Shown: piece after piece, positions 1,876 through 36,916 of the stretch | Layout: the number at the start of each line of letters is the position of its first letter | Numbering within the stretch: the stretch's first letter is position 1 | NCBI GenBank assembly: GCA_002050465.1 | Contig: MWYX01000060.1 | Span: 60,613-124,612, forward strand | From: Chitinophagales bacterium 65-1 | GTDB lineage: Bacteria > Bacteroidota > Bacteroidia > Chitinophagales > Chitinophagaceae | Direction of reading: 5' to 3' | DNA length: 64,000 nucleotides | Translations under genes and position numbers: made by a program | Notes under the pieces: generated by a model | Told to the model about the DNA's origin: nothing | What the model saw: only the letters and a program-made list of their open reading frames with translations | The model's database searches: none

Positions 1876-3145
1876 CAGAACAGTTTCCCCGCCAATAAAA
1901 CATGCAGTTGATTTTAATCTCACCTTAAAACCTTACGATAAAATTGTATTAAAAAATAATGCTCCTGTATATGCAATAAACGCTGGTGTGGAAGAGGTAA
2001 TGATGCTGGAGTTTGTTTTTTATGCAGGCAATTGTTACGAACAAAAAAACATTATTGCCGCAGCAACCAATAATTTATTAAAGAACGGAACTTCTGAAAA
2101 AACTGCTTTCCAGATAAATGAACACTTTGAATATTATGGTGCATATTTAAATCGGGCTTGTCATAACGAAACAGCAACGCTTACATTGCATTGCCTCTCA
2201 AAGCATTTAAATAATTTGTTACCGGTAATCAGGGAAATACTTTCCGATTCCATATTTGCGGAACATGAGTTAGAGATATTTAAACAAAACAGTAAACAAC
2301 AGCTATCTGTTAATTTACAAAAAGGTGATTTTGTTGCCAACCGGTTAATTGATAAATATTTATACGGCGAAGATCATCCTTATGGAAAATTTACTACACC
2401 TGAAAGTTATGATGCATTGCAGGCGAAGGAAATCAGAAATTTTTATACCGGCTATTATTTAAAAGGTAAGTGTATTTTATTTGCTGCAGGTAAATTACCC
2501 GTTGATTTTGAAGAACAGTTAAATAACTTTTTCGGAGACCTGAATTTTAATGAATCAATTCCGCCTCCGGCAGACATGGCAACACCTGCAACTGAGAAAA
2601 AGTTAAGGATAAAAAATGATCCCAACAGTGTACAGGGGGCAATCCGAATTGCCCGACCATTCCCCAACCGCCATCACCCAGACTTTAAAAAAGTAATGAT
2701 ACTAAATACATTATTCGGAGGGTTTTTTGGATCAAGGCTTATGGCAAATATCAGGGAAGAGAAAGGCTATACGTATGGTATACACAGCTATATACAAAAT
2801 CATATTCAGCAAACGGCATGGATGATAAGTACAGAAGCCGGGAAAGATGTTTGCGAAGCAGCAATTAAAGAAATATATAAAGAAATGAATTTATTAAAAG
2901 TAGAATTGGTGGATGACGAAGAATTGCTGTTAGTAAAGAATTACATGATGGGCAGCAACCTTGGTGACCTTGATGGACCTTTTCAGATCATTAACCGCTG
3001 GAAAAACCTCATTCTTAATGACCTGGACGAAAATTATTTTTATGATTCAATGAATACAATAAAAAATATTACCGGTAATGAACTTAATGATCTTGCAAAT
3101 AAATATCTTATACCTAAAGATTTTTTTGAATTGGTTGTTGTATAG
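1868..3145 (+). CDS. M16 family peptidase-like protein, non-catalytic subunit
   Basis: This 425-residue M16 family protein lacks the HxxEH zinc motif: the equivalent N-terminal part reads FVFYAGNCYEQKNIIAAATN. It keeps the C-terminal substrate-binding signature FGSRLMANIREEKGYTYGIH with the conserved Arg and Tyr. This is the pattern of the inactive partner in two-gene M16 peptidases, where the active chain carries zinc and the partner helps bind peptide. The active partner is the first gene in the window. The ATG overlaps the toxin stop by 8 bases, which is odd for a housekeeping-type gene and suggests that the toxin-antitoxin cassette arrived between the pair. Confidence 0.92.
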   Translation: MLNRTVSPPIKHAVDFNLTLKPYDKIVLKNNAPVYAINAGVEEVMMLEFVFYAGNCYEQKNIIAAATNNLLKNGTSEKTAFQINEHFEYYGAYLNRACHNETATLTLHCLSKHLNNLLPVIREILSDSIFAEHELEIFKQNSKQQLSVNLQKGDFVANRLIDKYLYGEDHPYGKFTTPESYDALQAKEIRNFYTGYYLKGKCILFAAGKLPVDFEEQLNNFFGDLNFNESIPPPADMATPATEKKLRIKNDPNSVQGAIRIARPFPNRHHPDFKKVMILNTLFGGFFGSRLMANIREEKGYTYGIHSYIQNHIQQTAWMISTEAGKDVCEAAIKEIYKEMNLLKVELVDDEELLLVKNYMMGSNLGDLDGPFQIINRWKNLILNDLDENYFYDSMNTIKNITGNELNDLANKYLIPKDFFELVVV

Positions 3146-3153
3146 TTACAAAT

Positions 3154-3909
3154 TTATTGGCGCTTAACTGCATTATAATAATTAAGAAATCGTATAACAT
3201 CAGTTTCTCTTTTAAAATCAATATTGTTTTCTTTTATCCAGTCATAAAACTTAGAAGAAGACGGAAGAAATGCAAGCACATTATCCTTACTTAATTTTTT
3301 AATCCTTTCAACTTTTTCGCCTGATTTTAAAAAATAATAACGATCATCGGAAAAGTAATACCGCTTTAATGTTCTAAACAGAGAATCACCTACTGAAACC
3401 TTTCTTTTTACATATTTCAAAAGCTGGTAATCACCATAATTTAAAACCTGAACAAAATCATTCAACTTTTTATTATCTAAAAACAAATTTGGAACATAAC
3501 TGATAAATGCAGCAGTGGTTATTGAAGTATCATTTTGCTTAAAAAAAATAATTGATGTTACAGGATTCTGTAATACTTTTTCTTCATCTTTTATTAAAAC
3601 ATGCACTTCATTAGTGGCCAGGTTTAATTTAAGCGGCACTATTCCTAACAGCGAACTGTTTTGATATAGTGCAGCAGATTGCCAATCATTGTTCCAAAAC
3701 CTGCTGCCTGTAATACGTGAATAAGGTATTTTATTCTCATTAATATTAGGAATAAATGTTTCTTCAATCACCCTGTTAAATTTGGCATCCCTAAGATTTG
3801 TAATTTCCCCAAATCTATTGAATTGTATAGTTGGCCCTTGCTGTTGTGCAATTGCAGAAGCATATATCATATTGAGCAGAATAATAACAAGTGTTTTTAA
3901 AAACTGCAT
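3154..3909 (-). CDS. secreted protein of unknown function
   Basis: This 251-residue protein has an N-terminal signal peptide (hydrophobic stretch about residues 5-20, ending ASAIAQ). No known family was recognised. The mature part is mixed alpha/beta and rich in Lys, Tyr and Phe, and it includes the segment YYFSDDRYYFLKSGEKVERI. The gene converges on the M16 gene with 8 bases between the stops. Such proteins are frequent single-gene species-level envelope proteins in this phylum; no function is proposed. Confidence 0.75.
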   Translation of the reverse strand: MQFLKTLVIILLNMIYASAIAQQQGPTIQFNRFGEITNLRDAKFNRVIEETFIPNINENKIPYSRITGSRFWNNDWQSAALYQNSSLLGIVPLKLNLATNEVHVLIKDEEKVLQNPVTSIIFFKQNDTSITTAAFISYVPNLFLDNKKLNDFVQVLNYGDYQLLKYVKRKVSVGDSLFRTLKRYYFSDDRYYFLKSGEKVERIKKLSKDNVLAFLPSSSKFYDWIKENNIDFKRETDVIRFLNYYNAVKRQ

Positions 3910-18375: not shown

Positions 18376-18410
18376 GGCCCCCTCTAAATCTCCCCCGGTG
18401 GGGGAGACTT
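18376..18410 (+). repeat. palindromic intergenic repeat, GC-rich family, arm 1
   Basis: It begins directly after the actC stop and holds the hairpin TCTCCCCC-GGT-GGGGGAGA (8-bp stem, 3-base loop). The same type of sequence, inverted, returns 63 bases later, and a related copy lies inside the TIGR02757 gene at 36474. No protein-coding role is expected. Confidence 0.8.
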
Positions 18411-18472
18411 TCGAAGGCTCTAAAAATTTATATTTAATAAAAAATGGAAAGATTAAATAATTATAAACTTCA

Positions 18473-18508
18473 AAAATCCCCTCCACCGGAGGGGTTTGGG
18501 GAGGCTGC
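18473..18508 (-). repeat. palindromic intergenic repeat, GC-rich family, arm 2, with actD ribosome-binding site
   Basis: This is an inverted relative of the repeat at 18376, with hairpin CCCCTCC-ACC-GGAGGGG. Its outer end gives GGGGAGG at 18498-18504, seven bases before the actD ATG, which is an excellent Shine-Dalgarno match in a genome where few are seen. The two arms could pair with each other or fold alone, so they may tune actD translation. Confidence 0.75.
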
Positions 18509-36109: not shown

Positions 36110-36916
36110 TTAAAACTTTTCCATTGCACCCAGCCCAAATAAAGCAAAATCATATTTTACAGGATCAGCTTCATCTAATTTACGAAGGTTTTTGGTTAGT
36201 TCCAATGCTGCCTGCCAGTCAGTTGCCTTTCGATCTAATAAATTAAAATGCCTGGCAACCCTTCCCACATGTACATCTATGGGGCAGATCAATTTTGCAG
36301 GTGAAAGATTTTTCCAGATTCCAAAATCAACTCCATTCCTGTCTTTTCGCACCATCCATCGTAAATACATATTTAATCTTTTGCATGTGGATCTTTTTTG
36401 CGGCGAGGCAATGTGCTTAACCGTTCGGGCAGGTGAATTTTCTAATGAAAAAAAATAGTTATGAAAATAATTCAAAGCCCCCTCTATCTCCCCCAAAGGG
36501 GGAAGAAACGGAGAAGATAATAGCGAATTTTTTTTATTAAAAAATGCAGATTCAAGAGATTTATTATTTGAATAATGATGTTTTAAAAATTCAACAAAAT
36601 ATAATAGGTCAGTAGTATTAAATGTGCGGTGCTTAAATCCCAATAATCTTTTTAAATCCAACAAATCATGGTTCAGGCAAAATTGATATGGCGCATTATC
36701 CATAAGCTGCATCAGTTCCCTGCTTTTATTTATGATTGTAGTCCTGTTACCCCAGGCAAATATGGCAGCGAAAAATGCCGCGATTTCTATATCCTGCTTT
36801 TTAGAAAATAAATGTGGGATGGAAATGGGGTCCTTTTCAATAAAAGAAGGCCGGTTATATTCAGCAACCTTCTTATCAAGAAATGTTTTAAGTGAGGCTT
36901 TATCAGAAAGCTTCAT
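36110..36916 (-). CDS. TIGR02757 family protein with in-frame repeat insertion
   Basis: This 268-residue protein matches the TIGR02757 family by CKRLNMYLRWMVRKDRNGVDFGIW and LICPIDVHVGRVARHFNLLDRKATDW. The fold is related to helix-hairpin-helix DNA glycosylases, but the function is unknown. In the middle, just before the conserved NYFHNYFF and RTVKHIASP parts, lies SPFLPPLGEIEGAL, which is encoded by a palindromic intergenic-type repeat (36474-36510). The reading frame is kept, so the protein is probably made. Only 2 bases separate it from the PLP enzyme gene upstream. Confidence 0.9.
   Translation of the reverse strand: MKLSDKASLKTFLDKKVAEYNRPSFIEKDPISIPHLFSKKQDIEIAAFFAAIFAWGNRTTIINKSRELMQLMDNAPYQFCLNHDLLDLKRLLGFKHRTFNTTDLLYFVEFLKHHYSNNKSLESAFFNKKNSLLSSPFLPPLGEIEGALNYFHNYFFSLENSPARTVKHIASPQKRSTCKRLNMYLRWMVRKDRNGVDFGIWKNLSPAKLICPIDVHVGRVARHFNLLDRKATDWQAALELTKNLRKLDEADPVKYDFALFGLGAMEKF
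36474..36510. repeat. palindromic GC-rich repeat inside TIGR02757 gene
   Basis: GCCCCCTCTATCTCCCCCAAAGGGGG is a close relative of the actC-actD repeat at 18376 (GCCCCCTCTAAATCTCCCCC). The hairpin is TCCCCC-AAA-GGGGGA. It is translated on the minus strand as a loop of the protein. Confidence 0.8.

Follow-up and report, generated by a model that had tools for sequence, protein, structure and literature searches.

Palindromic repeats within protein-coding genes are as such already known, from the Rickettsia palindromic elements (RPE) and from REP sequences. The RPE (Ogata et al. 2000), as described in passages of a review (PMC10969869), are in-frame palindromes in unrelated genes, and they resemble the Chitinophagaceae repeat considered here in being short palindromes that lie both between genes and in frame in many unrelated proteins, where they are translated as extra segments. 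They differ in that they are about 150 bp long, occur in Rickettsia and have no linked nuclease described in those passages, whereas the present repeat is about 50 bp long, occurs in Chitinophagaceae and also forms the inverted ends of units carrying a DUF559 gene. Our repeat is RPE-like in the sense that a palindrome stands in frame in several unrelated genes, a likeness of description. The GTAG and CGTC REPs also occur within genes; uvrA is one of them, and in two Xanthomonas species recB carries a repeat at nearly the same place. RAYT transposases are the partners of GTAG REPs, and CGTC repeats have no dedicated transposase (PMC3733652). These REPs and the REPtrons share with the present repeat a gene flanked by inverted palindrome pairs, many solo copies and intragenic copies, uvrA included (PMC3733652), but the REPtron enzyme is a HUH tyrosine transposase, while the enzyme linked here is a Vsr/EDxHD-type nuclease, and the sequence class differs too. 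A further comparison is offered by the EDxHD homing endonuclease I-Bth0305I (PDB 3r3p; PMC3943268), which has a homologous catalytic domain and, like DUF559, a gene located within conserved host genes; it is, however, a group I intron homing enzyme, whereas DUF559 is in frame with its host protein and flanked by palindromes, with no splicing element recognised. Inteins likewise place a nuclease in frame in essential or housekeeping proteins, but the ends of the DUF559 units are palindrome-derived peptides and the insert seems to stay in the protein; NCBIfam scans of 20 DUF559 host proteins found no intein family.

The locus compared here lies in a 64,000-bp stretch of DNA from Chitinophagales bacterium 65-1 (the window); named relatives of its TIGR02757 gene place the host lineage in Chitinophagaceae. 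The host gene, at 36110-36916 on the reverse strand, encodes a 268-aa protein assigned from its open reading frame and profile matches to the DUF2400/TIGR02757 family (215.9 bits against TIGR02757, curated cut-off 139.2; 282.5 bits against PF09674 DUF2400, cut-off 25). The original prediction that it carries a palindromic repeat holds: GCCCCCTCTATCTCCCCCAAAGGGGG starts at 36477, has no second match in the window with up to three mismatches and is matched in none of 100 dinucleotide shuffles. The extent first given, 36474-36510, was correct in location but not in length, and comparison with other type A copies, of the form AGCCCCCTCTATCTCCCCCNNNGGGGGAGNAAANGGAGAAGAT....GCGAA, puts the ends at 36476 and about 36527, with a GGAGAAGAT....GCGAA tail. 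The element has the orientation GCCCCCTC... on the forward strand, antisense to the host gene, and contains a core hairpin CCCCC-AAA-GGGGG at 36490-36502. Positions 36476-36526 form a 51-bp palindromic repeat of exactly 17 codons, translated on the reverse strand as SLLSSPFLPPLGEIEGA (residues 131-147), and the frame is intact, as had been claimed. Neither GTAG nor CGTC, the tags defined in PMC3733652, was found on either strand of 36470-36530.

The expected new loop was also recovered by structure prediction. In the AlphaFold2 model (mean pLDDT 93.7), residues 131-140 have a mean pLDDT of 57 and form a low-confidence loop ahead of a helix at 141-155, and the palindrome-derived insert is, as modelled, a flexible loop. 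A Foldseek search with the model returned weak DNA-glycosylase-like matches, the best being Endonuclease III (1orn, HhH-type; E 0.1), so the function of the protein remains a suggestion.

In an alignment of TIGR02757 proteins drawn from 50 genomes across the genus, family and order of the host, about 45 lack the segment, which was found only in the window's genome (G000) and in the congeners G008, G010 and G015. Conservation across the whole family was thus not found among these proteins, and the segment is an insertion, as predicted, with the site empty in about 45 proteins and occupied only in four repeat-bearing species. These four form one clade in a tree made without the insert (ultrafast bootstrap 92, SH-aLRT 88). 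The distance between the SLE and YFFS blocks is 31-34 residues in the outgroup congeners read at codon level, 38 in G000 and 40-41 in the other three; since the net gain is below 17 residues, the insertion at this site was accompanied by loss or replacement of host residues. In the TIGR02757 gene of G028 a possible second repeat (FFGGVWEGVDEAC) matched weakly and was left out of the counts. The fragmented, 80% complete state of the G000 assembly could raise the thought of a chance low-complexity loop or an assembly or annotation artefact, but no shuffle matches the repeat, which was found again in four independent genomes, all with an open-frame insert at the TIGR02757 site; this explanation is already refuted, its probability being negligible.

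The window also contains an intergenic copy of the repeat superfamily, between actC and actD (18377-18418, forward strand, CCCCCTCTAAATCTCCCCC), recognised by sequence comparison. The TIGR02757 repeat had been called closely related to it; the two are indeed related, but not of the same subtype, the former being type A and the latter type B. The type B copy is followed, about 60 bp further downstream, by a second, inverted palindrome of the same grammar and another subtype (18478-18505, reverse strand, CCCCTCCACCGGAGGGGTTTGGGGAGGC). Genome-wide, the strict repeat pattern has about a dozen matches in G000 and a reversed-pattern control has none; among 20 congeners the strict pattern is confined to the same four species. 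We collected 149 C-rich hairpins from these four, and at least 34 of them, besides the TIGR02757 copy, stand in frame in Pfam-matched proteins, so that the claim that the repeat can enter genes is confirmed well beyond the locus where it was made. An initial mechanical count of copies in open reading frames (71 of 149) was dropped because it included spurious ones, such as an antisense frame over 18391, and was superseded by a list confirmed with Pfam, which comprises 35 copies including that of the window; coding and intergenic copies were counted on sequence stretches extracted around them. The hosts include UvrA, IcmF, EPSP synthase, the isoleucyl-, valyl-, methionyl- and leucyl-tRNA synthetases (IleRS, ValRS, MetRS and LeuRS), SpoT, GcpE, PurH, UbiD and proline racemase. 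Type B copies are mostly read antisense as KVSPxGGDLEGA, and type A copies either antisense as SPFxPPLGEIEGA or sense as APSxSPxGGG or PPLSPPxGE. These belong to the frames that are usually free of stops, which is expected if survival is limited to frame-preserving inserts.

Several loci display other arrangements. Six type B repeats stand in tandem at positions 3043-3311 of locus L197 (G010:C165), and their spacing of 53-55 bp suggests a unit length of about 53 bp. In four G000 loci (L141, L142, L144 and L147) a second palindrome is nested in a B/C-type repeat, namely CCTGCC..GGCAGG, or CGATAG..CTATCG in L147; in L142 and L147 the nested palindrome is itself in frame within a coding sequence. 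In three species (L026 in G000, L193 in G010, L161 in G015) one region of UvrA has received several separate palindrome inserts. Type D palindromes form inverted pairs at positions 1508 and 1626 of L019 (G000:C31) and 264 and 415 of L163 (G015:C162); their spacing of 118-151 bp is too small for a full-length DUF559 domain, and the pairs have the appearance of MITE-like derivatives. Such short inverted-repeat units without a nuclease gene resemble MITEs, but neither a parent transposase nor a target-site duplication was identified for the present units.

In two host proteins of the Pfam-matched set the repeats adjoin a DUF559 domain (PF04480). DUF559 lay mostly within long open frames in the genus search and was matched in 161 of 299 Chitinophagaceae genomes; frames of at least 300 aa, tallied from the match listings, account for 97 of 150 among the family matches listed and 25 of 136 in a phylum sample. 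The proteins hosting it include LeuRS, MetRS, MetH, IcmF, AroC (chorismate synthase), CinA, ArgB, TrpA, HsdR, AcsA and tryptophan dioxygenase. LeuRS-type genes with two DUF559 domains at separate places in one protein were also seen (L202, L219, L234, L236 and L241, from G018, G157, G235 and G033). When the left flank of the domain was compared with the reverse-complemented right flank, the inverted-repeat score reached at least 15 in 76% of 55 DUF559 elements; of 1100 random bodies 0.3% did so, and none of the shuffles. Low-scoring genes (e.g. L203, L208 and L239) were retained in the statistics. A control with cross-paired flanks is harsher than the random bodies, because C-rich palindromes are common to all elements; the paired ends around DUF559 usually match in subtype. 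The inverted-palindrome pattern was present, though weaker, at twelve DUF559 loci in other members of the phylum.

The type A repeat itself forms an inverted pair around DUF559 in the sister species G008, where type A, DUF559 and inverted type A follow one another in frame in AcsA, about 179 aa replacing a variable loop. This complete element was found in G008 alone among 20 congeners; in the other 19, the two halves of AcsA are not separated by a DUF559. The 80% complete assembly of G000 yielded no DUF559 gene with type A ends, and its sole DUF559, in IcmF, has a palindrome that differs from type A. No target-site duplication was seen at the AcsA or alpha-2-macroglobulin junctions, where the host sequence has diverged; no clean junction was defined, and host residues were lost at the AcsA, TIGR02757 and alpha-2-macroglobulin sites. 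The first reading was right about the repeat and missed the wider system, in which, as the DUF559 flanks and the AcsA element of G008 indicate, the palindrome is the end of an element with a DUF559 nuclease.

Across the 299 family genomes, the palindrome class CCCCTCTCC..GGAGAGGGG (not type A) and a strong DUF559 match occurred together in 54, the palindrome only in 12, DUF559 only in 73 and neither in 160, an odds ratio of 9.9 (p=1.6e-13, with the genomes taken as independent and kinship ignored). The class stands without a strong DUF559 match in 12 of 66 genomes, and solo palindromes are far more numerous than DUF559 nucleases. Alternatively, REP-like palindromes could be mobilised by RAYT (Y1_Tnp/HUH) or another transposase, with DUF559 as a hitch-hiker or as a gene that prefers inserting into palindromes. 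PF01797 genes occur in all 20 congeners, and GTAG and CGTC REPs are known within genes, in some cases with two species sharing a similar position in one gene (PMC3733652); yet none of ten inspected PF01797 loci is flanked by the present repeat, two of the ten have a different GCCCC..GGGGC hairpin nearby, the window element lacks the GTAG and CGTC tags, and the matched inverted pairs around DUF559 far exceed controls. We consider this alternative unlikely, and RAYT/Y1_Tnp was rejected as the mobility partner, being present in all congeners yet without a flanking repeat at the ten loci. Y1_Tnp (RAYT-like) genes near a GCCCC..GGGGC hairpin, at position 1311 of L136 and position 1381 of L113, possibly represent a separate REP family.

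On the comparison of profiles and models, the DUF559 domain is homologous to the EDxHD homing endonuclease I-Bth0305I. The DUF559 profile matched the catalytic domain of that enzyme (3r3p) with E 6.2e-6 and PDB 3hrl with E 7.5e-34, and a Foldseek search with the DUF559 structure model (mean pLDDT 85.3) returned 3r3p with E 6.1e-5 and a weaker match to Vsr. A comparison of 52 DUF559 copies showed E19, D48, E59, R38, Q39 and other positions to be invariant. The EDxHD enzymes form a recognised family of homing endonucleases whose targets reach nearly 60 bp (PMC3943268), and a repair role has been proposed for VsrA, a DUF559 protein in Caulobacter (PMC12907096). The latter proposal, together with the catalytic-site columns kept in the embedded copies, would also suit a fusion of domains that is beneficial, perhaps in defence or repair, with the palindromes acting as transcription or mRNA hairpins that have no role in mobility. 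The host proteins, however, are unrelated in function, AcsA contains DUF559 in only one of 20 congeners, and the element ends are repeats that also occur alone across the genome, which makes such a fusion very improbable.

We therefore favour, with a probability of roughly two in three, the reading of the TIGR02757 segment as a terminal palindrome, here solo, from small mobile elements that carry a DUF559 endonuclease gene and whose mobility would be driven by DUF559. A complete element consists of a palindrome, a gene for a DUF559 (Vsr/EDxHD-type) endonuclease and the same palindrome inverted. Both complete elements and solo palindromes would insert between genes or, where stop-free frames permit, in frame within genes, a solo palindrome yielding a loop and a complete element an extra nuclease domain. 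The DUF559 nuclease may cut at or near such sites, the element being copied in during break repair in a homing-like manner.

The history of occupied sites could be followed in three genes. The TIGR02757 inserts lie on one strand in all four species and differ in subtype, being type A in G000, C-like in G008 and G010 (GCCCCCACCAAACCTCCCCC...) and B-like in G015. An alpha/beta hydrolase has type B in G015 and type A in G010, immediately ahead of GHSMG. The CCA-adding enzyme bears an insert in all four species and in none of the outgroup congeners, the G015 copy being type B in the opposite orientation and the G000 copy having a nested second palindrome, CCTGCC..GGCAGG. By sequence, this turnover favours old insertions that were later replaced. 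The TIGR02757 insertion would most simply be older than the split of the four species, kept because it is located in a tolerant loop and replaced later by type A in the G000 lineage; resident palindromes may be re-cut and converted, which would account for type A in G000 against B and C types in the sister species. Each species could instead have acquired its own element at the same permissive TIGR02757 loop, with no conversion in place. The difference between A, C-like and B-like inserts, with boundaries one codon apart, and the several separate inserts in the UvrA loop agree with this, but the TIGR02757 and CCA-adding enzyme sites are occupied in all four species and empty in outgroup congeners, and the inserts of G008, G010 and G015 have a tail sequence in common. 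We regard independent insertion as rather doubtful; it concerns only the history of the TIGR02757 site and is compatible with the DUF559 link. The suggestion that the repeat had been domesticated as a useful new part was not supported; sites that stay fixed while subtype and orientation change, and the disorder of the loop, indicate a tolerated, still-evolving insertion.

A nuclease partner of intragenic palindromes appears to be undescribed in the open-licence literature, in which we found no prior account of DUF559 with palindromes or of its in-frame insertion. More tentatively, and with slightly less than even confidence, these units may represent an undescribed class of homing-type elements, in which a Vsr/EDxHD nuclease between inverted palindromes is kept as an unspliced, translated domain in housekeeping proteins, seeds solo palindromes as loops and re-converts sites over time. 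Matched inverted ends tie a nuclease of homing-endonuclease ancestry to intragenic repeats, and complete elements stand in frame in essential proteins with no obvious splicing device. If the proposed link is true, it would offer a route by which selfish DNA extends core enzymes with loops and entire domains, provide a testable enzyme for repeat mobility, and account for the odd proline/glycine-rich peptides and DUF559 domains in housekeeping proteins of Bacteroidota.
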